Virus record (IMG/VR): IMGVR_UViG_3300021420_000008
Location: 1-50,916 of that record
Source of the DNA: a virus
Reading direction: 5' to 3' (one strand)
DNA length: 50,916 nucleotides
Within the stretch, counting starts at the first letter, position 1, and each line of letters starts with the position of its first letter. The translations under genes and the position numbers were made by a program. Of the stretch, positions 14,759 through 46,623 are shown piece after piece. Under the pieces are notes generated by a model that was not told the origin of the DNA, did no database searches, and saw nothing but the letters and a program-made list of their open reading frames with translations.

Positions 14759-14975
14759 TGGATTGCTGGGCCGTTAGCTTGCTGCTTTCCTTCCTTGCCC
14801 TCTCGTACATCACTCCCTCGATGAACCACTTAAAGGCCTCGGGCCTCTCCGCGTGGTAGGTGATGACATAGGCCTGCTGCCGGGCCTCACGCAGGCGGCA
14901 GAGCTCATCGAAGGCTTCCGCTAGTCCTCGGTCAATAGTCCTCGGGCCTTCAAGCAACGGGTCGCGTTCTTGCAT
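14751..14975 (-). CDS. Small helical charged protein
   Basis: A 74-residue protein from the ATG whose minus-strand upstream sequence holds GGAGAGGAGAA, a strong ribosome binding site. The frame extends further upstream but that part is Arg/Pro-rich and overlaps the HTH gene, so I do not include it. The protein is charged and helical (GLAEAFDELCRLREARQQAY, then GVMYERARKESSK), with no known motif. It follows the HTH gene and overlaps it by 55 bases. Function unknown. Confidence 0.65.
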   Translation of the reverse strand: MQERDPLLEGPRTIDRGLAEAFDELCRLREARQQAYVITYHAERPEAFKWFIEGVMYERARKESSKLTAQQSSD

Positions 14976-15157
14976 CGGTATTCTCCTCTCCGGAAAAGGG
15001 CCTTGTGAGTCTTGATTGTCGTGCGGCTGAGGCCGAGTCGCTGGCCGATCAGAGTGGGGCTGGTATGAAGGGAGAGGAAGGCGAAGACGCAGCAGTAGTG
15101 GAGGCCTTCTTCGCACACGAGACGCTCGAACAATGATGAACACGTTTTGCCGCTCAT
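14921..15157 (-). CDS. Small helix-turn-helix DNA-binding protein
   Basis: A 78-residue protein. Residues 32-55 read SPTLIGQRLGLSRTTIKTHK, a helix-turn-helix with the usual short turn, followed by a basic segment (ALFRRGEYRCKN). Three Cys lie in the first 25 residues (CSSLFERLVCEEGLHYCC). It is near the 3' end of the early block. Sequences resembling half of the putative operator (AACGTGAAC on the minus strand around its start and AACGTGTTCAT just inside) occur here, which could mean autoregulation; this is inference. It is a candidate for the unidentified regulator of the operator family. Confidence 0.65.
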   Translation of the reverse strand: MSGKTCSSLFERLVCEEGLHYCCVFAFLSLHTSPTLIGQRLGLSRTTIKTHKALFRRGEYRCKNATRCLKARGLLTED

Positions 15158-15163
15158 GCCGGT

Positions 15164-16378
15164 TCACGTTTTCTGCGTAGGCTCCGGATCCACTCCAACA
15201 TAGCGCAGTAGCCTCCCCTGCCCATTTATCTCCATCCGGACCTTCCCCAGCTGCAGCACTCCCATCAGGATCTGCTCGAACTCGTGGAAATTCGGGAACT
15301 GGTGGTGGATTTCATGATAGGCCTCTTCGTAAGTGCAGGTCCGATGTCGCTTCACGAATTCGACCAAGCGATCTGCTCCCATTGCGGCCTCATTCTTGCC
15401 AATCAGGGCAAAGACCTTCTCGAAGTCCGGCTCCACGCTGATCAGCATGCCATTGGCGTCCTCGAAGTCCTCAATCTCCAGCTGCATTGAGTCCCGTCGG
15501 GAGGCGGCCAGAATCATCGCGAGCTTACACAAGTGAGTTTGCTTCCTCGCCAGATAGTTCCGCATGATCGGTGAGCTGCACTCCGGGTACACCTTCTGCC
15601 ACAGATCCTCATACCAGATCTTCTCCCACTCTCTCGCTTCTGGCGTCTCCGTGAAGGGCCCCACGAGGTTGAGGCTGATATGCTCCAGATCACTGACGAG
15701 TGCCCTCCGCACCATCTCAAAGTCCTCCGCCGCGACCTCCTGGCTCGGATCATAGATCAGCCTCGCCTTCTCTTCTCGGTACACAAATATACAGCGTGAG
15801 GTAAAACCGCCCCCAACGGCAAGCCGCGGCATATTCTCTGCTATTGCGGGAGGAGTAGTGCAGCCCAGAAGGGTTATCCAGGGCGCTTCGACGATGTCCT
15901 TCCCATTCATCTTCGTGCTCTTGTCGAACCGTCTGCGACCATCCCACAAAGTGATGAAGAGGTTCACCATATCCCTGTCCTGCATGTTCAACAATAGCCC
16001 CAACTCGCTTGACACTAAGGTGATTGCCGACATCGGGTAGTGTTCGTCCTGATAGAGGAAGCTTTCGCAGCTCCCCGCAAAAGCTGTAACGAGCGACTGC
16101 CAGGTGATCGAATCTGGACCGAAATTGATTCCAGGCACTTCCCGCAACATGTCCAGCGCCAAATCGGCCGTAGAAGACTTGGTCACCACTCCCGGCGGAG
16201 CCACTAATATCACATAGAAAGACGGATACCATTTGAAGGTTCTTCGGTCGATCCAGACCTTTCGCCGCAGGGCTCCGCTGAGGGCGCATACCGCACTCCA
16301 AAAGTGCATAATGCCAGGGGCCTCAGTCACGGAGGCCCACTCGACATAGGTCTTCAACCAGTCCTCTAATTGTCTCAC
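15164..16378 (-). CDS. DUF3987-like P-loop protein, putative helicase
   Basis: A 404-residue protein starting at GTG in a GTGA overlap with the polymerase gene. The N-terminus (WLKTYVEWASVTEAPGIMHF, then SALSGALRRKVWID region) and the segment FYVILVAPPGVVTKSSTA form the start of a P-loop NTPase of the DUF3987 kind; the Walker A loop is degenerate, with Thr in place of the second Gly before Lys-Ser. Later WITLLGCTTPP and GGFTSRCIFVYREEK match conserved segments of this family. These proteins often sit next to phage polymerases and are thought to act as replicative helicases or primase-helicase relatives. The linkage with the polymerase supports a replication role. Confidence 0.7.
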   Translation of the reverse strand: MRQLEDWLKTYVEWASVTEAPGIMHFWSAVCALSGALRRKVWIDRRTFKWYPSFYVILVAPPGVVTKSSTADLALDMLREVPGINFGPDSITWQSLVTAFAGSCESFLYQDEHYPMSAITLVSSELGLLLNMQDRDMVNLFITLWDGRRRFDKSTKMNGKDIVEAPWITLLGCTTPPAIAENMPRLAVGGGFTSRCIFVYREEKARLIYDPSQEVAAEDFEMVRRALVSDLEHISLNLVGPFTETPEAREWEKIWYEDLWQKVYPECSSPIMRNYLARKQTHLCKLAMILAASRRDSMQLEIEDFEDANGMLISVEPDFEKVFALIGKNEAAMGADRLVEFVKRHRTCTYEEAYHEIHHQFPNFHEFEQILMGVLQLGKVRMEINGQGRLLRYVGVDPEPTQKT

Positions 16379-19440: not shown

Positions 19441-19853
19441 TTCCGCCTCCAATCACCTTCTCTACGCGCCTGCCGATTGTCTAGTATTACTTCCCTATTC
19501 TTGTAATAATTAGCTGTAGCGCATGCTTTGTGATAGAAGTAATCTCCCTTTCCTGCATATGCTCCTTTGCGCTTTACTTGACTCATCGTTGCAGGATTAC
19601 ACCAAACCTTACAGAGATAACATTTGCGATAGTCAGGATTACCGCTGGCCAGGAGCGCTTCTGTTCTTGTGTGTAGAAGAAAATGATATTTCTGATCAGG
19701 ACAGATCACCAAGTTATTGTTCGTGTTCGCCGGATCTAGGTCTATATGATGCACTTGTTCACTCCCTTTCAGTTCTCGTCCTAGAGCCTTTTCTGCTAAA
19801 TAGCGATGCAGTGTATTGCCGTGACCGCCTGTTTTCGGGTATACGTAAGTCAT
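19437..19853 (-). CDS. HNH endonuclease, homing type
   Basis: A 138-residue protein with an ATGA overlap with the methyltransferase gene. The segment LHRYLAEKALGRELKGSEQV, then HHIDLDPANTNNNLVICPDQ is the HNH_3 domain (HH, then N, then H in KYHFLLH). The C-terminal half carries a CYLCKVWCNPA Cys cluster and KACATANYY. Enzymes of this kind are free-standing homing nucleases that cut and spread into related phage genomes. Its base composition is visibly lower in GC than its neighbours (for example the AT-rich stretch 19480-19860), which suggests later arrival. Confidence 0.85.
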   Translation of the reverse strand: MTYVYPKTGGHGNTLHRYLAEKALGRELKGSEQVHHIDLDPANTNNNLVICPDQKYHFLLHTRTEALLASGNPDYRKCYLCKVWCNPATMSQVKRKGAYAGKGDYFYHKACATANYYKNREVILDNRQARREGDWRRN

Positions 19854-21175
19854 TTCAGCCCCATTAGTCTTTTCAATGCTATTCCGTAAGATGCTTGATC
19901 TTTCTCAATAGCTGTAGCGAACAGCTTAAGGCTGTGTGCTGCAGCAAGGATAGTACCTGTACCACAGAATGGATCTAGTACTCTGTCACCTGGCAGACAA
20001 CTACGGCCGAGTAAATCAGCGAATAACGCAACTGGTTTTTGTGCGGCGTGACCGAGGTTGTCGTCAGGAGGGAAGGTGAGGACGTCGCCCTGGAGGAGAT
20101 TGCACGTCCGGGAGCCCTTCAGGGCGTAGAGAATCAGCTCATACTTCCTTTGCGGCCCCATCTGCGGCCAGGGAGCACGCATCCCGAGGGGCTTATACCA
20201 GACCAAGGGCGTGCGGAAGGGCTTCCAGCCCACACGCTGGAAGGCGTCCTTGAGCCAGCAGAACCAGTCGATGTCACAGAACATGTACAGGTGCGCATCG
20301 GGCTTGGCCACGAGGAACGATAGTTCCGCGAAGCGGGTGAATAGGGTTGCGGCTTCCTGCGGATCATCCGCATAGCCGTGGGGGAGATTGCTCATCCCTC
20401 CGCTGTCTCCGTACTCGTCCGCCCCGATCCCGTAGGGAGGATCAGTGAGGATGCAGGCGAACTGGTCCGGCGCCGCTTCCGAGAGCCAGCGGATGGCGTC
20501 GATGTGCAGGAGGGAGTGAGAATGCCTTCCGTAGGTCGGACCCATCTGCTTGGCCACCTCCGTCGCCCTGGCAGCGACCTCCTTGCGCTGGATCAGCTTG
20601 AACGCTGGCCTCAGGCCGCCTGCATCGCGGACCTCGGGATCGTCCAGATAGCGGGAGACGATTAGCTCCATTCGAGCTGTCTGTTGCGCGACTCCGATCT
20701 CGTTCTCGGTTGCGACAGCGAGGGGGTCGATGTAGCGCTCGATGCCGATTTCCTTACTCCCTGGTTCTGGCATTCCAGCTGCCTTGGCTTGAAGTCCTCG
20801 CAAGCGAGCGAGCAGGGCGGTGGCTTCTGCCTTCTCCACCCAGGTCAGATCGGTGCGAATGCAGTTCTCATCGTACTCGCACTGCAAGGCTTCCAGCGGC
20901 TCTAGCTCCCCCAGCTCAACACAGGGCGCCGCACCGAGGACGATCTTGCCCTCAAAGCTGTAACCCATCCCCAACTCAGTCATGTCCCGCAGGACGCGGA
21001 GGCGGCGCTCGCCTGACACGAGGGTGGTTGACCCGTTGAGCTGGCGGACGACCAGCGGAAGCTGAAGGCCGATCTGCTCGATGGAGGCCTGGAGTTCCTG
21101 GAGCGCCTCCGGCTTGAACTCCCTCCGCTGGCGATTTTCGGGGACCTGGATGTTGGCGATTGGTATTAGCTGCAA
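19850..21175 (-). CDS. ParB-domain / DNA methyltransferase fusion
   Basis: A 441-residue protein. Residues 1-210 are a ParB/Srx-like domain (IPIANIQVPENRQRREFKPE, then SGERRLRVLRDM), a partition-protein fold that in phages is often fused to modification enzymes. Residues 215-441 are an amino-methyltransferase with ILTDPPYGIGADEYG (catalytic DPPY, motif IV), WYKPLG, and VLDPFCGTGTILAAA (AdoMet binding, motif I), in the order of beta-class N6-adenine or N4-cytosine enzymes. It probably methylates phage DNA to evade host restriction or to control replication. No partner restriction gene is visible. Confidence 0.85.
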   Translation of the reverse strand: MQLIPIANIQVPENRQRREFKPEALQELQASIEQIGLQLPLVVRQLNGSTTLVSGERRLRVLRDMTELGMGYSFEGKIVLGAAPCVELGELEPLEALQCEYDENCIRTDLTWVEKAEATALLARLRGLQAKAAGMPEPGSKEIGIERYIDPLAVATENEIGVAQQTARMELIVSRYLDDPEVRDAGGLRPAFKLIQRKEVAARATEVAKQMGPTYGRHSHSLLHIDAIRWLSEAAPDQFACILTDPPYGIGADEYGDSGGMSNLPHGYADDPQEAATLFTRFAELSFLVAKPDAHLYMFCDIDWFCWLKDAFQRVGWKPFRTPLVWYKPLGMRAPWPQMGPQRKYELILYALKGSRTCNLLQGDVLTFPPDDNLGHAAQKPVALFADLLGRSCLPGDRVLDPFCGTGTILAAAHSLKLFATAIEKDQASYGIALKRLMGLK

Positions 21176-27512: not shown

Positions 27513-27685
27513 GGTGCTACCTTCCATAACCAAGTAATAGTGCCCGCTATCATTAACAAGAATCCTGTCAGCAGGCAGAACACACCGATGTTGCAGATCC
27601 AGTCAGGAATAACTAGCTGACTGCTCAGATCGAGTTCCATGACTGTATAGCCTACCAAGAAGAGGGAGAGTCCCACAGCCATCAT
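27509..27685 (-). CDS. Small two-helix membrane protein (58 aa)
   Basis: Starts at an ATG overlapping the preceding stop as ATGA. Two hydrophobic helices are visible, MAVGLSLFLVGYTVMELDL and ICNIGVFCLLTGFLLMIAGT, with a short connecting segment (SSQLVIPDW) and the ending ITWLWKVAP. Function unknown. Early phage membrane peptides sometimes act in superinfection exclusion or inhibit host functions, but nothing here shows this. Confidence 0.65.
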   Translation of the reverse strand: MMAVGLSLFLVGYTVMELDLSSQLVIPDWICNIGVFCLLTGFLLMIAGTITWLWKVAP

Positions 27686-27960
27686 TCCGAGGTGACCTCC
27701 TCGAACCGCTGCTTCAGGGCCTGAATCATCCCCTTCGGCCCGCGGACGAAAAAGCCGAGAGGGAAGCCGTAAGGGGAGAGATCGAGCGTAGCCTGGTCGA
27801 AGTACTCGCGGATGCGCTCCAGGATGAACTGCTGCCACGCTCCTTGTGGCACTCTGCGTTCTGCGTCGCTCCACAAGAGCAGCTCCACTCGCTGCTTCTC
27901 CGCCGCAGGCACAGTTACGTGAATGTGCTCCAACGGAACAGGTGATGGTCTCCGTGGCAT
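27682..27960 (-). CDS. Conserved small early protein (92 aa)
   Basis: The ATG overlaps the preceding stop as TGATG. The first half is EHIHVTVPAAEKQRVELLLW, then VPQGAWQQFILERIREYFDQ, a ribbon-helix-helix-like pattern (strand, helix, helix) also seen in phage proteins with VP.GA. The end (FFVRGPKGMIQALKQRFEEV) is charged. A DNA-binding role is possible; I cannot show it. Confidence 0.6.
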   Translation of the reverse strand: MPRRPSPVPLEHIHVTVPAAEKQRVELLLWSDAERRVPQGAWQQFILERIREYFDQATLDLSPYGFPLGFFVRGPKGMIQALKQRFEEVTSE

Positions 27961-28244
27961 CAGCCCAGCTCCTTCCCCTCACCTATGGCCCTGGCCTTCA
28001 TCAGCATCCGTTGCGAATCTCGCCAGAGCTGCTTGAGCGCCTCCTCCATTCGCTCTGGCCAAGGCGGCTGCTCCGTCATCACGCCGATGACCTTGAATCC
28101 GCCTTCCTTGAGTGCTACGCAGCAGAAGAACTTACACTCCCCGCTCTCAACGATTTCGACGAGCTGCTGGACCTGAGAGCGAGCGTGCTCTTTCCGCACT
28201 TCTTCTGTCGCACCTGCGTAGAATGATTCTTCGGCTTCGGCCAT
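27960..28244 (-). CDS. First gene of internal early transcript (94 aa)
   Basis: A 94-residue protein at the start of the transcript from the promoter at 28288-28316. The ATG lies about 37 bases after the expected transcription start. It is charged and helical at both ends (EEVRKEHARSQVQQLVEIVE and MEEALKQLWRDSQRMLMKAR) with a central strand pair CKFFCCVALKEGGFKVIGVM. No known family. It is followed by a coupled chain of small genes. Confidence 0.6.
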   Translation of the reverse strand: MAEAEESFYAGATEEVRKEHARSQVQQLVEIVESGECKFFCCVALKEGGFKVIGVMTEQPPWPERMEEALKQLWRDSQRMLMKARAIGEGKELG

Positions 28245-28277: not shown

Positions 28278-28293
28278 AAACGTGAACATGATA
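28278..28293 (-). promoter_or_regulatory. Operator-like 16-mer on the -10 box
   Basis: On the minus strand the bases read TATCATGTTCACGTTT, matching the consensus TAnCrTGTTCAyGTTT of the sites at 35477, 35822 and 35880. It covers the -10 element and transcription start of the promoter at 28288-28316. A protein bound here would block initiation, so a repressor site is likely. The core (CGTG-TT-CACG type) has two-fold symmetry, as expected for a dimeric regulator. Confidence 0.6.
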
Positions 28294-28316
28294 CGTCCAC
28301 GTGGCCCAGTTGTCAA
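28288..28316 (-). promoter_or_regulatory. Sigma70-type early promoter
   Basis: On the minus strand TTGACA (28316-28311), a spacer of exactly 17 bases and TATCAT (28293-28288). It precedes the 27960-28244 gene by about 37 bases from the expected start. The operator-like 16-mer overlaps its -10 region. The promoter stands in the only clear gap of this gene chain and lets the distal early genes be expressed separately from the proximal ones. Confidence 0.75.
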
Positions 28317-28335: not shown

Positions 28336-28524
28336 TCAATCCCCTTCCTCTCCGTCCTCTTCCTCCTCTTCCTCCTCATCTGGATCCGTCTGCAGCTCAA
28401 TCACCTCCGATCCGTAAACGGCTCCTGTGATGGGCCGCAGATCATCGGCGTCTGCGTCATAGGCCTTTACGGATGAGAGTGCAGGATAGCGAGAGAGAAG
28501 GGCGATCAATTCCGCTGCGGTCAT
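28336..28524 (-). CDS. Small acidic protein (62 aa)
   Basis: Preceded by AAGGAG. The protein has a helical start (TAAELIALLSRYPALSSVKA), a beta part (LRPITGAVYGSEVIELQTD) and a pure acidic tail (PDEEEEEEEDGEEGD). Acidic small proteins of phages sometimes mimic DNA, but the tail here is short. The Rho-independent terminator for the upstream gene lies directly before its ribosome binding site, so its expression must depend on read-through, or on a promoter I cannot see. Confidence 0.65.
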   Translation of the reverse strand: MTAAELIALLSRYPALSSVKAYDADADDLRPITGAVYGSEVIELQTDPDEEEEEEEDGEEGD

Positions 28525-30022: not shown

Positions 30023-30372
30023 TTATCCTCCCTGTAATCAGTTTGATCGCAGATCCCCCAAAGCGCCTCGACATCAAAGTGAGGGCCAAACACTCGCCGC
30101 CCGCGCCACTTGAACGCTTCCCTCGCCCTGTGCTCCATTGAGGTGATGCAGAGCTTGAAACAGGTCTGCACGATCTCGCTCTGGGTCATCTCCGGCGATA
30201 AGCGCCACTGGCGGGTGTACTGCAGTGTCGGCTTGCGGCTGAAGGTGTCGGGGTCCATGTAAACTGCGGAGAGCATGATCCCCCCGTGCGCTTCGCGCAC
30301 ATGAAAGTGATAGGTCGAGTGCGGGTCGAACTCGCACTGCTTCACCACCTCCCGCATTTCCTCAAGAGTCAA
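30019..30372 (-). CDS. Conserved phage protein with FKWRGRRVFGPH motif (117 aa)
   Basis: Starts at TTG with GGAGGGAACCC upstream, overlapping the preceding gene by 11 bases. The helix EEMREVVKQCEFDPHSTYHF, strands GIMLSAVYMDPDTFSRKP, and the C-terminal HRAREAFKWRGRRVFGPHFD occur together in a family of small phage proteins, always with this RRVFGPHF ending. It is in the coupled early gene chain. Function unknown. Confidence 0.7.
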   Translation of the reverse strand: MTLEEMREVVKQCEFDPHSTYHFHVREAHGGIMLSAVYMDPDTFSRKPTLQYTRQWRLSPEMTQSEIVQTCFKLCITSMEHRAREAFKWRGRRVFGPHFDVEALWGICDQTDYREDK

Positions 30373-31130: not shown

Positions 31131-31475
31131 TTAGCGCTCCTTGACTTCGAGGGCCTTCATCAGCTGCTCCAGCATGTGCTCGATGTGAGCGATGCGCTGG
31201 ACGAACCCAGGTATCGCTCGAGGCGCTGGAGGCGTCGCAGAATCGCTCTCAGATCCTCCATTCAGTGAAGCGTATTGTGCATATCCCACCTTGCGAATTT
31301 CTTTATCTGTTGCCATTCTGATAAGTAGCTGCCTAAGCAGGGGCGGACTTGGTTGCAGCTTCGCTATTTCTGCTCTGCTTGCCAGTTCCGCTGTAGTCTT
31401 TATCCCCTCATTGAGTGCTACTCGAATCGCTTGTCTCAGCTGCGCTCTTTTTACCGCTGTTGGCCGACGCTTCAT
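31131..31475 (-). CDS. Winged-helix-like DNA-binding protein (114 aa)
   Basis: The ATG overlaps the preceding stop as ATGA. The first 80 residues are RAQLRQAIRVALNEGIKTTA, ELASRAEIAKLQPSPPLLRQ and LLIRMATDKEIRKVGYAQYA, i.e. three helices followed by a hairpin, the order of a winged helix. The rest is Pro/Ser-rich with a final coiled helix (FVQRIAHIEHMLEQLMKALE) that could mediate dimerisation. A regulator role is possible, so it is a second candidate for the operator-binding protein. Confidence 0.6.
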   Translation of the reverse strand: MKRRPTAVKRAQLRQAIRVALNEGIKTTAELASRAEIAKLQPSPPLLRQLLIRMATDKEIRKVGYAQYASLNGGSESDSATPPAPRAIPGFVQRIAHIEHMLEQLMKALEVKER

Positions 31476-33139: not shown

Positions 33140-33432
33140 AGTTCTCCCCTCGCTATGCGATTCTTCAGTTCATAGATCAGCCCCATCGAGTCATCATAGG
33201 CCTTCTTGAGCCTCCCTCTCTCCTGCATGATCTCCACCAGCTCACCCCGTGCTGCTGCAGGAAAGCAAAATGCTTGATATAGACAGTCCTCCGCCTTGTG
33301 CGCGTTGTCGATCCAACAGAAAGCTTCGGCTCCTGATCCTCGCATCTTCGTAACCGTGCCCTCCTTGAGCGAAGTGGGATCAGTAAGCCCTGTTCCGGCT
33401 CCTTCCCATACTATCCTGTCGCCGATCTTCAT
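33136..33432 (-). CDS. Small early protein with SH3-like start (98 aa)
   Basis: Starts at an ATG overlapping the previous stop as ATGA. Residues 1-40 (KIGDRIVWEGAGTGLTDPTS and LKEGTVTKMRGSGAEAFCWI) have the strand and turn order of a small SH3 or KOW-like barrel; the C-terminal half is a helical coil (RGRLKKAYDDSMGLIYELKN). A nucleic-acid or protein-binding role is likely but not shown. Confidence 0.6.
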   Translation of the reverse strand: MKIGDRIVWEGAGTGLTDPTSLKEGTVTKMRGSGAEAFCWIDNAHKAEDCLYQAFCFPAAARGELVEIMQERGRLKKAYDDSMGLIYELKNRIARGEL

Positions 33433-33956
33433 TCTGTCGTCTCCTTCTCTGATTGATCCTCATCCGGCACCAGTCCCATTAGCTCGATGTCCTCGGGACA
33501 GGTCAGGACTCCCTCACAATAGCGCCATCCTTCAGCGAGGAGCGCATGATAACGCTTGACCTTCGGTCGCTCCGCGGCGGGCTGTTCTCTGAGTCGCTGC
33601 GCTGTGGCTGCAATGCTTTTGGAATCTGCTTCCAGCAACGAGGGCCGTTTCGGCTGCTCGGCGAGCATTCGCTGGAGCTTCTCGAAGCTCTCGTCGGCTC
33701 GCTGTTGCAACTCAGCCGCGGAGATTTCGGCCGGAGCCATCCCTTCCATCGGGACCCAGCCATAAGTCTGCCCTGTCACCACTCGATCTATGGTCTCCTT
33801 GCTCACGCAGTAAGAGAGCGCCACTTCCAGCCGACTCGCGCCTTCCATTACCCGCCTGCGGATCAGCCTCACATCATTTGCGCTGAAGGCCCCACCATGC
33901 TTCCTCGCCCTGTTATGGGGCCGCATTCCAGGCGGCGGATATTTAACGTTGCTCAT
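33429..33956 (-). CDS. HTH-containing early DNA-binding protein (175 aa)
   Basis: The ATG overlaps the preceding stop as ATGA. Residues 23-65 contain AFSANDVRLIRRRVMEGASR, LEVALSYCVSKETIDRVVTG and QTYGWV, the pattern of the helix-turn-helix found in NUMOD-type and HNH-associated regions. The remaining part is a charged helix (AAELQQRADESFEKLQRMLA) followed by LLEADSKSIAATAQRLREQP and a compact C-terminal domain (EGWRYCEGVLTCPEDIELMG). A candidate regulator of early genes. Confidence 0.65.
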   Translation of the reverse strand: MSNVKYPPPGMRPHNRARKHGGAFSANDVRLIRRRVMEGASRLEVALSYCVSKETIDRVVTGQTYGWVPMEGMAPAEISAAELQQRADESFEKLQRMLAEQPKRPSLLEADSKSIAATAQRLREQPAAERPKVKRYHALLAEGWRYCEGVLTCPEDIELMGLVPDEDQSEKETTE

Positions 33957-34165
33957 TGCGCTGCTCTCTGTGGCAGTGGCCTCTCGCCTTGCAGAAATCC
34001 TTCTTTATCCTCCAGCCAAGTCTCTCTCCTCACTATGCTGGCCACCGTTCCCATCGAAACAGTTATCTCCCCCTGCTCCTCGATGATGCGCCTGATATGC
34101 GAATAGGTCTTCCCGTTCGCGGCCAGCGCTCTGATCCAGCGAACATGGTAAGGTGTGAGTTTCAT
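33953..34165 (-). CDS. Small HTH protein at head of early operon (70 aa)
   Basis: From the ATG at 34165 (AGGA nine bases upstream); a longer start at 34255 would place the promoter at 34197-34225 inside the gene, so I prefer the short form. It reads KLTPYHVRWIRALAANGKTY, SHIRRIIEEQGEITVSMGTV and ASIVRRETW, a helix-turn-helix similar to resolvase-like and Xre-like recognition helices. As the first gene of a coupled regulatory pair it is a further candidate for a transcription regulator. Confidence 0.65.
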   Translation of the reverse strand: MKLTPYHVRWIRALAANGKTYSHIRRIIEEQGEITVSMGTVASIVRRETWLEDKEGFLQGERPLPQRAAQ

Positions 34166-34406: not shown

Positions 34407-34545
34407 ACCCCTACAGAGAGACGGAACTGGGGCGGAGAGACTAGACCCATAACGGAACTACGAATGGGGGCGAGAGGCCGGGAGGGTTGAGGATGATGAA
34501 GAAGAAGACTAGTTGCTAATGTTGATGATGAAGATGAGCCCAATC

Positions 34546-34577
34546 GTGAACAGGTTAACTCGCGCTAACCTGTTCAC
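34546..34577. repeat. 12-bp inverted repeat after the 64-aa gene
   Basis: GTGAACAGGTTA and TAACCTGTTCAC are perfect inverted copies with an eight-base spacer. On the minus strand it lies nine bases after the stop of the 34586-34780 gene, without a T-run, so it is not a standard terminator. The outer halves GTGAAC/GTTCAC recall the core of the operator family. It may be an operator, a protein binding site for replication, or an RNA stem. Confidence 0.6.
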
Positions 34578-34585
34578 TCCCCTCA

Positions 34586-35447: not shown

Positions 35448-35476
35448 ATGATAACGTGTTCGCGAATTGCTGACAA
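35448..35476 (-). promoter_or_regulatory. Main early promoter with flanking operators
   Basis: On the minus strand TTGTCA (35476-35471), 17 bases, TATCAT (35453-35448). The operator-like site 35477-35492 touches the upstream edge of the -35, and a partial site (TAACGTGTTCGCGA, 35452-35465) lies between -10 and -35. Both are placed to let a bound protein occupy the promoter. It drives the early protein at 34855-35409 and probably the genes behind it. Confidence 0.65.
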
Positions 35477-35492
35477 TACCGTGTTCACGTTT
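35477..35492. promoter_or_regulatory. Operator-like 16-mer, copy 1
   Basis: TACCGTGTTCACGTTT, the copy with the most symmetric core (CGTG-TT-CACG). It lies directly upstream of the -35 of the minus-strand promoter. A shorter related site CGCGTTCACGCG is at 35501-35512. Copies 2 and 3 and the copy at 28278-28293 agree in at least 14 of 16 positions. Confidence 0.6.
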
Positions 35493-35772
35493 CCTCCAGC
35501 CGCGTTCACGCGTATCATATCCTGCACTGCAGCATGACTCGCGTTGCGAAACCTTCCATCATATCAGCTCCCGACTCGCGCGTCAATCCCTGGTACGCGT
35601 CGGTACCCAGCCTGCAGGGGGCTCGGCGATTACCGCATCATAGCGTGATGCATATATCGACGGAGCCTACAATACTACAATCACGTCAGCTCTCACTCCC
35701 TCGCACCTACCGCCCTTGCGCTAGCCGTATGTTGCGTCGCTAAGATCGAGGCCGGACGGGGGCAAACTGAGA

Positions 35773-35786
35773 AGTGAGTACTCACT
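35773..35786. repeat. Perfect 14-bp palindrome in the divergent region
   Basis: AGTGAGTACTCACT is its own reverse complement. It lies in the 558-bp gap 35410-35967 about midway between the two divergent promoters and differs from the operator family. It may be a binding site for a second dimeric protein or a replication-initiation element. The gap also holds an open frame at 35534-35743 that I do not count as a gene. Confidence 0.6.
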
Positions 35787-35821
35787 CCGCAGGCGAAATC
35801 CAAATTTTGCGCAACTGAGAG

Positions 35822-35837
35822 TAACGTGTTCATGTTT
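35822..35837. promoter_or_regulatory. Operator-like 16-mer, copy 2
   Basis: TAACGTGTTCATGTTT, about 93 bases upstream of the -35 of the late promoter at 35930-35958. It differs from copy 3 in a single base. The spacing of 58 bases between copies 2 and 3 would allow looping or cooperative binding by a dimeric regulator. Confidence 0.6.
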
Positions 35838-35879
35838 AAGGGAGCTGGAGCAGCGCAGTGGCACAGGAACTGCTCAGGA

Positions 35880-35895
35880 TATCGTGTTCATGTTT
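35880..35895. promoter_or_regulatory. Operator-like 16-mer, copy 3
   Basis: TATCGTGTTCATGTTT, about 35 bases upstream of the -35 of the plus-strand promoter. At this distance a bound protein could act as activator from upstream or as repressor with copy 2. The TATC start also resembles a -10 box, and could be a weak promoter of its own, but I see no -35 at the right distance. Confidence 0.6.
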
Positions 35896-35929: not shown

Positions 35930-35958
35930 TTGACTTTGGGGGTGGATAGGAGTATCTT
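35930..35958 (+). promoter_or_regulatory. Late-block promoter with almost no leader
   Basis: TTGACT (35930-35935), 17 bases, TATCTT (35953-35958). The expected transcription start is near 35965 and the ATG of the terminase small subunit-like gene begins at 35968, so the message would be leaderless or have a very short leader. No Shine-Dalgarno sequence precedes that ATG, which fits a leaderless transcript. The operator-like copies 2 and 3 are upstream. Confidence 0.65.
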
Positions 35959-43149: not shown

Positions 43150-43712
43150 TGGTCAATCCTGTGCAAGAGCGCATCCTCAAAGCCTCAACCAAGTCGCCAG
43201 CTGCCCCTCCCTTCAAGTACGTGGAGGGTGCGGAGCAGGGCTACATTTCGATGAGCGTCCCCAGGCAGCGACTTGCGGCGCCGGAGATCCCCGGCTTCCA
43301 CACCCATTGGTTCATGGGCTTGCCCGATCGCGTGCACCAGGCGATGCAGGCGGGCTACACCTGGGTGGATCAAGATGAGGTGGAGCTGAGCGACTTCGAT
43401 CTCGCAGGCGATGGCAGGCCCATCGGCGGGACGGATCTCGGTTCCAGGGTTAGCACCGTTGCCGGAGGTCTCTATGAGGGCACGATGCAGCCTCAGCGTC
43501 TCTATCTGATGAAGATTCCCGAATGGCTCTGGGAAAAGCATCAGAAACCGCTGGATGATATCAACGAAAGCATCGCAGCAGCTCTGCGGGGCGATCGCCC
43601 TGCCATCAGCACTTCAGCCCAAGACGACAAGGCGGCGAGAGGGCAGGACTTCTCCCACCGTTATCAGTCAGACGCAGGGAAAAAGAAGACCCTCTTTCAT
43701 AGAAAGAATTGA
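43149..43712 (+). CDS. Capsid-associated protein between scaffold and coat genes
   Basis: A 187-residue protein whose ATG overlaps the scaffold stop (TGATG). The core reads IPGFHTHWFMGLPDRVHQAM, QAGYTWVDQDEVELSDFDLA and GGTDLGSRVSTVAGGLYEGT, followed by MQPQRLYLMKIPEWLWEKHQ. This arrangement occurs in a protein found between scaffold and coat genes of several P22-like phages. The end is basic and Lys-rich. A head-completion or assembly role is likely, the precise function unknown. Confidence 0.65.
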   Translation: MVNPVQERILKASTKSPAAPPFKYVEGAEQGYISMSVPRQRLAAPEIPGFHTHWFMGLPDRVHQAMQAGYTWVDQDEVELSDFDLAGDGRPIGGTDLGSRVSTVAGGLYEGTMQPQRLYLMKIPEWLWEKHQKPLDDINESIAAALRGDRPAISTSAQDDKAARGQDFSHRYQSDAGKKKTLFHRKN

Positions 43713-44369: not shown

Positions 44370-45290
44370 ATGCCGGCTGGTATTATCAACACAGGCAGTC
44401 ATCCCAAATTGCTGTGGCCAGGCGTCCATGCTACGTGGGGTCAGATTTACGCGGAGCATAAGGCCGAGTACACGGACCTCTACGATTGGGACGACTCGGA
44501 TCAAGCTTATGAGGAAGACCTCCAGATCAGCGGCTTCGGCATGGCCTCAGTCAAGCCTGAGGGAGAGCCCGGAACGTATGACAGCGAGCTGCAGGGCATC
44601 CTCACTCGCTACGTGCCGACGCCCTATTCGTTGGGCTACATCGTCACGCATGAGGAGTTGAAAGACAACCTGTATGATGCAGTAGCTAACAGAAGGGCGA
44701 AGGCAAACGCCTTCTCGATCAATCAGACCATTGAGAACATCTGTGCGTTCCTGTACAATAACGGGTTCGTCACGACTTACTTCGTTGCGGGCGATAATCA
44801 GGCCCTCTTCAGCACAGGTCACACTCAGGTCACGGGAGGGACTTTCAGCAATGCCCTCAGCCCTGCGGCCGACCTCGCGGAGACCTCCCTCGAGGACATC
44901 AGCATTCAGGTCATGGGAGTGCAAACGGATCGGGGGCTGTTCTTTCAAGCCATGCCCGAATCGCTGCACATCCATCGCAATAACTGGTTCAACGCGAATC
45001 GCATCCTCAAGTCGGTGTTGCAACCAGGCGGCAGCAACAATGACATCAATGTGCTGCACGCGACCAACGCATTCCCCAAGGGCATCAAGCTCAACCATTA
45101 CTTCACGAATCCAGGAGCCTGGTTCGTGAGGACTAATGTGCCGAATGGGATGACGGCTTTTTGGCGGGAGAGACCAGAACTGAAAATGGACAACGATTTC
45201 GACACTAAAAACGCAAAAGCTTTGTGCTATTTTCGACTCTCTGTGGGTATAACCGATCCGCGCGGCGCTTATGCGTCGAACGGGCCGTGA
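44370..45290 (+). CDS. Major capsid protein
   Basis: A 306-residue protein with AGGAGG upstream. It has an N-arm with PKLLWPGVHATWGQIYAEHK, an elongated region with YSLGYIVTHEELKDNLYDAV (E-loop/spine helix pattern), a P-domain with ASVKPEGEPGTYDSELQGIL and an A-domain with FFQAMPESLHIHRNNWFNAN and KLNHYFTNPGAWFVRTNVPN, ending LSVGITDPRGAYASNGP. The order fits HK97-fold coat proteins of about 300 residues, as in Mu-like or related phages. It is the likely most abundant protein, placed behind portal, scaffold and decoration genes. Confidence 0.8.
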   Translation: MPAGIINTGSHPKLLWPGVHATWGQIYAEHKAEYTDLYDWDDSDQAYEEDLQISGFGMASVKPEGEPGTYDSELQGILTRYVPTPYSLGYIVTHEELKDNLYDAVANRRAKANAFSINQTIENICAFLYNNGFVTTYFVAGDNQALFSTGHTQVTGGTFSNALSPAADLAETSLEDISIQVMGVQTDRGLFFQAMPESLHIHRNNWFNANRILKSVLQPGGSNNDINVLHATNAFPKGIKLNHYFTNPGAWFVRTNVPNGMTAFWRERPELKMDNDFDTKNAKALCYFRLSVGITDPRGAYASNGP

Positions 45291-45308
45291 GGAGTTAGTG
45301 AGAGAAAA

Positions 45309-45342
45309 CGTGGACACCGATGCGTGTGCAAACGTGTCCACG
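45309..45342. repeat. Inverted repeat in the gap after the capsid gene
   Basis: CGTGGACAC and GTGTCCACG are perfect inverted copies with a 16-base spacer, 18 bases behind the capsid stop, followed by ATTTAATA. The second arm in its context (AAACGTGTCCACGATT, 45330-45345) agrees in most positions with the operator family. It may form an RNA stem that reduces read-through, or bind the same regulator. The rest of the gap (45343-45399) holds another small stem, CCAGC/GCTGG. Confidence 0.6.
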
Positions 45343-45399
45343 ATTTAATACTCCGCTTCCAGCAATTCCGCTGGGGCGTCTCGACTGGAGATTCGAGGA

Positions 45400-46623
45400 A
45401 TGAGTACAGGTGCATCACCAACATTCAGCAACTTCCCTGGTGGGTTTGCCAATGGGCTCTCAGTGAGAGGGATGCCATTGATGCAAATGCAGCCAGGCCA
45501 AGTGTTCTATCTGGGCAACGGCCCGGCACTGATCCAAGGCGCTCGGGGAGGTAGCGATGGGAATAGGGGGACTTTCCTCTCGCCCTACGCGACACTGCAG
45601 GGCGCTCTCAACTCCGCTTCCAGCGGCTCGGGCAATCTCTCCTCCAACCAGGGCATTCAGGACGGCCGAGGCGACATCATCTTCATCCTCCCCGGTCACC
45701 GAGAGACGATTACCTCCGCTACGGCCTTGAGCCTCAACCAAGCTGGAGTGGCGATTATTGGTCTTGGTGCCGGCCTGCTCCGGCCGACATTCGTTCTCAG
45801 CACCGCAACCACCGCAACTATCAACGTGCTTGCTGCGGGAATGTCGATGCAGAATTGCTTGTTCCTGGCGAATTTCGCCGGGATTGCTTCGGTGTTCACC
45901 GCAGCGAACGCGAGCTTCACCGCCGTTATCGCTGGCAACTTAATGACCACCAGCTCGGTGACCGGCACGATCAATTCCGGAGCCACGATTGCTGGCACAG
46001 GTATCCTACCTGGAATCATGATCCTCAACCAAGTAAGCGGCACGGTGGGCGGAGCCGGCGTCTACACGCTGAGCCAATCGCTCACCTTCGCCTCCGGCTC
46101 CGTCACGTCGATGACTCCAGACTTCGCCATCGACAACTGTGAGTTTCGTGACATCTCGACCGTTCTCAACTTCGTCACGATCTTCTCCGGTGCTTCGACA
46201 ACCAACGCTTGCGACGGATTCCAGTTCACCCGCAACCGCGTCTTCAGCCTCGGTAACACTACCGGGACAACCTGTATCAAGCCCCTCGCGCGTGCGGACA
46301 GGATGCAGCTGAACAGCAACTTCGTCGATATGGGAATCTTGAACGATACACCCATCTTGCTCACGGGAGGTGTCTACAATCATCAAGATCTGGAAATTGG
46401 CTGGAACATCCTCAATCGCCCAAACACCTCAGCCACCGGTGGCCTGATGATGTCGAGTTCGGCCACCAGCTGCACGGGACACGTCCACGACAACTACGTT
46501 TGGAGCCTTGTCGCTACGCCCTTGCTGGCTCCCACCGGTACGAAGTTGGCGTTTGACCAAAACTATGTGAACAACACCGGTGCAGCGGACAAGTCCGGCC
46601 TGATTCTTCCAGCTACAGCCTAA
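45400..46623 (+). CDS. Beta-helix virion protein with inserted Ig-like module
   Basis: A 407-residue protein. Residues 80-165 and 245-407 form a parallel beta-helix-like repeat of short strands and turns (QNCLFLANFAGIASVF, IDNCEFRDISTVLNFVTIFS, DNYVWSLVATPLLAP). Between them, about residues 165-245, is an inserted module, FTAVIAGNLMTTSSVTGTIN, SGATIAGTGILPGIMILNQV and GGAGVYTLSQSLTFASGSVT, the pattern of a recurrent phage fibre domain with GTGVxxGT and GGxGxYTxSxSQ. Located directly behind the capsid gene it may be a head fibre or decoration protein. Confidence 0.75.
   Translation: MSTGASPTFSNFPGGFANGLSVRGMPLMQMQPGQVFYLGNGPALIQGARGGSDGNRGTFLSPYATLQGALNSASSGSGNLSSNQGIQDGRGDIIFILPGHRETITSATALSLNQAGVAIIGLGAGLLRPTFVLSTATTATINVLAAGMSMQNCLFLANFAGIASVFTAANASFTAVIAGNLMTTSSVTGTINSGATIAGTGILPGIMILNQVSGTVGGAGVYTLSQSLTFASGSVTSMTPDFAIDNCEFRDISTVLNFVTIFSGASTTNACDGFQFTRNRVFSLGNTTGTTCIKPLARADRMQLNSNFVDMGILNDTPILLTGGVYNHQDLEIGWNILNRPNTSATGGLMMSSSATSCTGHVHDNYVWSLVATPLLAPTGTKLAFDQNYVNNTGAADKSGLILPATA

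Follow-up and report, generated by a model that had tools for sequence, protein, structure and literature searches.

The virus record IMGVR_UViG_3300021420_000008 (50,916 bp; the window hereafter, i.e., the whole stretch of DNA analysed) carries a small family of 16-bp sites with a palindromic core. These are real control sites, and many related phages have them at the same small set of positions. They probably serve as operators for a small DNA-binding protein of the ribbon-helix-helix (RHH) type that the phage itself encodes, the product of open reading frame (ORF) 27682-27960, which would repress early promoters through them. All phages compared are uncultivated contigs, and operators were called from sequence.

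The 16-bp sites of the window

The window is laid out as an early minus-strand block (14.9-35.4 kb) followed by a plus-strand structural block, a syntenic gene set, and ORF 44370-45290 can be aligned with annotated major capsid genes. The consensus TANCGTGTTCAYGTTT is matched exactly on the plus strand at 35477, 35822 and 35880, as described in an earlier note on this DNA, and with a single mismatch at 28278-28293 on the minus strand, where the site overlaps the -10 box of TTGACA-17-TATCAT (28316-28288), again as the note had it. Two partial copies were also proposed, of which 35452 has 3 mismatches and 35501 is only a 10-bp core that may be chance (Table 1). A lambda-like array of 35452, 35477 and 35501 was rejected, as its third site is weak and 21 bp away. 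The weaker sites announced near the capsid gene and a helix-turn-helix (HTH) gene are present at 45306/45330 and 15132/15156, and the claimed dyad symmetry takes the form of the core GTGWWCAC. Site 34542 (minus strand) and the 24-25 bp paired arrangement described below had been overlooked.

Ten matches with at most 3 mismatches to the consensus are found in the window against 0.92 expected, a number reached by 0 shuffles. The genome-wide scan suggested in the note, with a matrix built from the four best sites, gave seven hits of at least 14 bits against 0.35 expected; when each of the four was left out in turn, it ranked fourth window-wide, just behind the other three. Sites scoring at least 13 bits are intergenic in 8 of 9 cases, in a window whose intergenic fraction is 0.084 (8.4%; p about 2e-8). 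Equal-scoring sites inside genes, which the note had named as evidence against its proposal, were not found: the strongest clearly genic matches, 34663 and 26527, score about 12, a level where about one chance hit is expected, and were treated as chance. In total, the window holds about ten sites at about six loci, and the strong copies are all oriented along the transcription of the neighbouring genes. A blastn search of the divergent region against phages gave no match, and an exact-peptide search of viral_contigs gave no close relatives for the divergent-region genes or the large terminase.

Paired palindromes at conserved junctions

Comparison of contigs encoding relatives of a capsid-region protein and of the DNA polymerase revealed that the usual unit consists of two short palindromes whose centres are separated by 24-25 bp. 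In the window, such pairs are found at 45306/45330, 15132/15156, 34542/34566 and 35452/35477. In relatives, they are found in L018 (6279/6303), L005 (3798/3822), L066 (6476/6501), L024 (10038/10062) and also L043, the L018 pair being near-perfect and orthologous to the window pair 15132/15156.

The most informative relative is G001, the whole 49,211-bp record behind L043, which is syntenic with the window at about 50% protein identity and shares no DNA similarity with it by blastn. Of its nine exact GTGWWCAC cores, eight lie between genes, and each of these belongs to one of five pairs at exactly 24 bp; simulated G001 genomes hold 1.1 exact cores on average and never a 24-bp pair. Judged by flanking proteins, four of these five pairs have counterparts at orthologous junctions of the window: in the divergent region (homologs of 34855 and of the small terminase on either side), immediately behind the capsid gene, downstream of the DUF3987 gene, and in the interval from the 28603 homolog to the 27682 homolog, hence upstream of the latter. 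The fifth pair (47866) has no clear counterpart in the window, 34542 being a candidate.

In other phages, the core changes and the geometry is kept. When 11 relatives were searched blindly for palindrome pairs, G021 gave the core AGGCGCCT at exactly 24 bp, both after DUF3987 and in the divergent region. Inspection of four junctions gave CCRCGYGG in G008 and G010, CCACGTGG in G013, TACGTA in G006 and GTGNNCAC in G007; G012 has the core CCACGTAG with a spacing of 25 bp, and the pairs of G018 are weaker. The cores are palindromic across phages (GTGWWCAC, AGGCGCCT, CCRCGYGG and NNACGTNN), and one core recurs at promoters and gene ends inside a single phage. When spacings of 16 to 40 bp were scanned, 24 bp won in 18.6 of 55 deduplicated post-DUF3987 junctions (2.2 expected) and in 6.8 of 21 post-capsid junctions (0.8 expected). 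Shuffled sequence gave no 24-bp peak, nor did the DUF3987 coding control. The capsid coding control was itself elevated at 24 bp (15.1), probably through homology among those coding stretches, and for the capsid junctions the shuffles are therefore the better reference.

A candidate regulator whose strand residues covary with the operator

The note had put forward four HTH proteins as candidate regulators. The regulator is probably none of them, and they are not conserved with the sites: 14921-15157 was rejected because no homolog was found near the sites in G001 or L024, both of which carry them, and 31131-31475, 33429-33956 and 33953-34165 have no widespread homologs in a 12-genome comparison. 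The protein that covaries with the operators is that of ORF 27682-27960, which is not of the HTH type. Its family is conserved across relatives, and in the window the 28278 site with its promoter is found just upstream of the gene. The family alignment has conserved helices preceded by a strand of the form xLxLxLP, in which the alternate positions are hypervariable. AlphaFold2 models of the window protein (mean pLDDT 91.8) and of a shorter homolog agree, the former with helices at 19-29 and 41-55 after an extended N-terminus; the N-terminal strand is unpaired in the monomer model. From sequence and model, the protein looks ribbon-helix-helix (Arc/MetJ-type). Homologs differ at the C-terminus: some carry an extension of about 35 aa, and in G001, G007, L024, G012 and G021 the protein stops after the second helix. 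Phages with and without the extension nevertheless have the 24-25 bp spacing in common.

A Mantel test compared strand-residue similarity with operator half-site similarity among the 15 phages having both operator and protein. The triad 12/14/16 (H12, H14 and T16 in the window) correlated with the operator at r 0.595 (p 1e-4), p-values here being optimistic because the phages are related and not independent. The intervening buried-face residues of the strand gave r 0.006, the rest of the domain r 0.13 and DNA polymerase identity r 0.27; controlled for polymerase identity, the triad retained r 0.56. For the 11 phages whose operators had been listed before the protein family was noticed (with a few further G021 sites read later), r was 0.70 (p 1.4e-4). 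Thus, the feature expected of an RHH protein, alternating strand residues that track DNA specificity, is found statistically, with covariation confined to positions 12, 14 and 16.

Position 14 ranks second of 2,122 alignment columns in eight proteins, and its residue follows the core: H goes with GTG..CAC, N mostly with GC|GC and T with AC|GT. At loci outside those used to make the rule, clear pairs agree in L163, L172, L181, L052 and L060; in held-out contigs, cores predicted automatically had low z-scores, and only clear pairs were counted. The window and G001 have the triad HHT and the core GTGTTCAC in common, despite an overall identity of 29% between their regulators. A shift of operator sequence with three residues points to the ORF 27682-27960 protein as the likely reader.

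In the proposed mechanism, one dimer would bind each palindrome through its N-terminal strand, hence two dimers per pair. Binding would repress the early promoters that the sites overlap (35448-35476 and 28288-28316), and the regulator would thereby repress its own promoter. Less certainly, the protein might also act as a road-block to elongating polymerase when bound behind the capsid and DUF3987 genes, two places at which the window shows no evident promoter. The idea in the note of one regulator for early, internal and late transcription gains from the presence of dyad sites at the early promoter, the internal early promoter and the late-gene junctions, orthologous in a relative of about 50% protein identity. 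For late control, the sites at late-gene junctions stand, while direct control of the late promoter is unproven, 35822 and 35880 being upstream of 35930-35958 and not overlapping it.

Several points weigh against this reading. The promoters are consensus matches and not mapped starts, and 35822, 35880 and 28278, which are among the window's four strongest sites, are without a 24-bp partner. G019 and G023 encode the regulator protein and have no clear pairs. The held-out L031 breaks the residue-base rule, G008 is mixed, and the relatedness of the phages flatters the Mantel p-values. Foldseek and VIA-align returned no useful match for either model and no RHH protein in searches of the PDB, an absence not read as a new fold. 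Of 33 family members, Pfam RHH_5 picked up three, with E-values no better than 0.08 and the window protein not among them, and the family profile was not significant against P22 Arc and Mnt, Mnt aligning in the expected strand register in that non-significant comparison. Because profile and fold searches do not confirm the assignment, the protein is called RHH-like. Neither Pfam nor PHROG has an annotation for the family itself, and a search of 50,697 phage records with two of its homologs as queries gave a single match.

RNA hairpins and other explanations

Post-capsid elements fold strongly as RNA in eight of eight cases (mean z -6.3), as do several post-DUF3987 elements and 34542. Hence, part of their conservation may be for RNA, a further point against a purely operator-based reading, and post-capsid elements may serve two functions. 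The gap after the major capsid gene (window 45290-45400; L005, L006, L007, L010 and L014) holds an inverted repeat of unrelated sequence in each relative inspected, and 34542-34581 is a near-perfect inverted repeat (GTGAACAGGTTA-GCGCGAG-TTAACCTGTTCAC), both operator pair and strong hairpin (z -7.0). It was considered that the paired elements are mainly RNA hairpins at gene ends, as terminators or processing sites, to which the promoter sites bear a secondary resemblance. This is unlikely, as promoter-region pairs fold weakly (divergent mean z -2.3) and are direct repeats in G001 and G012, and in G001 the orientation of the central AA/TT in one site of a pair is independent of that in the other. 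Gene-end hairpins mostly lack T-tracts, i.e., the combination of hairpin and U tract of intrinsic terminators is mostly not seen. In addition, RNA folding does not require a core common to promoters and gene ends in one phage, and the core covaries with protein residues.

Dispersed intergenic sites whose strong window copies follow the direction of adjacent genes could also be promoters for a phage-specific RNA polymerase or sigma factor. That they are palindromic, paired and overlap sigma-70-like promoters makes this very improbable, as does the G001 element at 33509, which lies between convergent gene ends with no downstream gene to read in either direction; a search of window proteins, not an exhaustive one, turned up no phage polymerase.

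KorB-type ParB proteins act at dispersed operators, and the window encodes a ParB N-terminal domain fused to an N6/N4 DNA methyltransferase (19850-21175, minus strand) that is conserved in 11 of the 12 genomes compared; the exception is G023, a phage that has no clear pairs either. This fusion, the small terminase or an HTH protein could be the reader, the covariation then reflecting shared ancestry. Such a reader is quite improbable: the signal of ORF 27682 falls exactly in the alternating strand residues and survives the polymerase-distance control, and the HTH candidates are not conserved. The fusion was set aside for its weaker support in column covariation, its best column reaching r 0.55 among 354 with no local cluster of high columns.

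Comparison with known systems

The arrangement is best read as working like the stoperators of cluster A mycobacteriophages, whose repressor halts transcription elongation, with an autoregulated repressor and a possible transcription road-block. In L5, Bxb1 and TipsytheTRex, one repressor acts both at the early promoter and at short intergenic gaps spread over the genome, and operator sequence diverges together with the repressor between relatives (PMC6550527, PMC9283540). Here too, sites are dispersed in short intergenic regions with one in an early promoter. In contrast, cluster A phages are temperate and have 20-30 asymmetric sites of 13-14 bp read by a monomeric HTH-type repressor, whereas the phages described here have about six loci, palindromes often paired at 24 bp, a putative strand-type reader and no integrase found. 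The sites are not placed in the stoperator family because their cores are palindromic and their number is low (about ten in the window, five pairs in G001).

Dispersed intergenic sites, one of them on an early promoter, and operators that diverge with their cognate protein (PMC6550527) might also suggest a lysogenic immunity system of the cluster A kind. Besides the few and palindromic sites, this is made fairly unlikely by the lack of any Phage_integrase or Resolvase match (tyrosine integrase or serine recombinase) in 12 genomes, in which controls were positive and records may be incomplete. One regulator scan of 84,980 bacterial and archaeal genomes, with a reach limited to close relatives, gave no related locus. 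The missing integrase argues against lysogeny, if not conclusively, so the likely purpose of the system is timing within a lytic cycle.

RHH proteins are obligate dimers that insert a two-stranded sheet into the major groove. With the RHH repressors P22 Arc, Mnt, MetJ, AmrZ and NikR, the candidate appears to share alternating exposed strand residues, a proline and then two helices, as well as short palindromic sites used in twos. In the solved AmrZ structure, half-sites are read by three alternating strand residues, Lys18, Val20 and Arg22, and AmrZ represses its own gene (PMC3325190), an autoregulation that would be matched here. The candidate has no significant sequence or fold match to those repressors and, unlike them, would govern a fixed-junction regulon across one phage genome, and the 24-bp centre spacing is wider than in the dimer-of-dimers operator of AmrZ.

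In lambda OR/OL, adjacent dyad operators about two helical turns apart flank and overlap an early promoter, as adjacent dyad operators do in the window. Here, unlike in lambda, operators are also found at gene ends far from regulator genes, and no CI/Cro-like gene is conserved. The Bacillus prophage SPbeta reportedly has a phage-wide master repressor, MrpR (YopR), acting at dispersed repeated elements. MrpR is a different type of protein, and the likeness is a lead only.

Features of the window

Coordinates are collected in Table 1. Predicted late promoters are alike in two distant relatives, the window (TTGACT-17-TATCTT, 35930-35958) and G021 (TTGACT-17-TATCCT, about 30274-30302). Small ORFs beside the internal operator, window 28336-28524 and G001 43261-43467 (both minus strand), each end in a run of acidic residues. 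In G019, the same stretch is present at both contig ends (L137 about 65, L139 about 8588), suggesting terminal repeats.

Table 1. Sites, predicted promoters (consensus scan) and regulator-linked ORFs of the window
Feature	Position	Strand	Remarks
Operator AAACGTGTTCATCATT	15132-15147	-	After DUF3987 gene (15164-16378)
Partner site ATGCCGGTTCACGTTT	15156-15171	+	24 bp from 15132
Proposed regulator, 92 aa	27682-27960	-	N-terminal strand and two helices, RHH-like; strand residues H12/H14/T16
94-aa ORF	27960-28244	-	Between 28278 operator and regulator gene; overlaps regulator start codon
Strong operator TATCATGTTCACGTTT	28278-28293	-	Overlaps -10 box; no 24-bp partner
Predicted internal early promoter TTGACA-17-TATCAT	28288-28316	-	Upstream of ORFs 27960-28244 and 27682-27960
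Operator TAACCTGTTCACGATT	34542-34557	-	Pair arm with 34566-34581 (24 bp); also strong hairpin
Second pair arm TAACCTGTTCACTCCC	34566-34581	+	Partner of 34542
Predicted early promoter TTGTCA-17-TATCAT	35448-35476	-	Flanked and overlapped by operators 35477 and 35452
Weaker operator TAACGTGTTCGCGAAT	35452-35467	+	3 mismatches; within spacer of minus-strand early promoter
Strong operator TACCGTGTTCACGTTT	35477-35492	+	Adjoins -35 of minus-strand early promoter, upstream side; 25-bp pair with 35452
Partial core CGCGTTCACG	35501-35510	+	10-bp core, 1 mismatch; 21 bp from 35477; may be chance
Further predicted promoter	35586-35558	-	No overlapping site
Strong operator TAACGTGTTCATGTTT	35822-35837	+	No 24-bp partner
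Strong operator TATCGTGTTCATGTTT	35880-35895	+	Ends 35 bp upstream of predicted late promoter; no 24-bp partner
Predicted late promoter TTGACT-17-TATCTT	35930-35958	+	No site overlaps
First post-capsid pair site	45306-45321	+	After major capsid gene
Second post-capsid pair site	45330-45345	+	24 bp from 45306; pair also an RNA hairpin, z -3.5

Significance

What appears to be new is a regulon whose operators, paired palindromes at fixed junctions across the phage genome, are probably read by an RHH-like protein. A broader picture is put forward tentatively and may well not hold in full: in a large group of uncultivated, probably lytic tailed phages, one small strand-reading protein would govern a genome-wide regulon by binding 24-bp pairs at fixed junctions and would block both initiation and elongation, and rapid switching of a residue-14 code (H for GTG..CAC, N for GC|GC, T for AC|GT) would create incompatibility groups without lysogeny. 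A visual motif call becomes a testable regulator-operator system across dozens of uncultured phages. As geometry and positions are conserved while the sequence read shifts with three residues, these phages would offer a natural series on how the specificity of a strand-type reader changes, and they raise the question of why phages without sign of lysogeny diversify their operators as temperate phages do for immunity.
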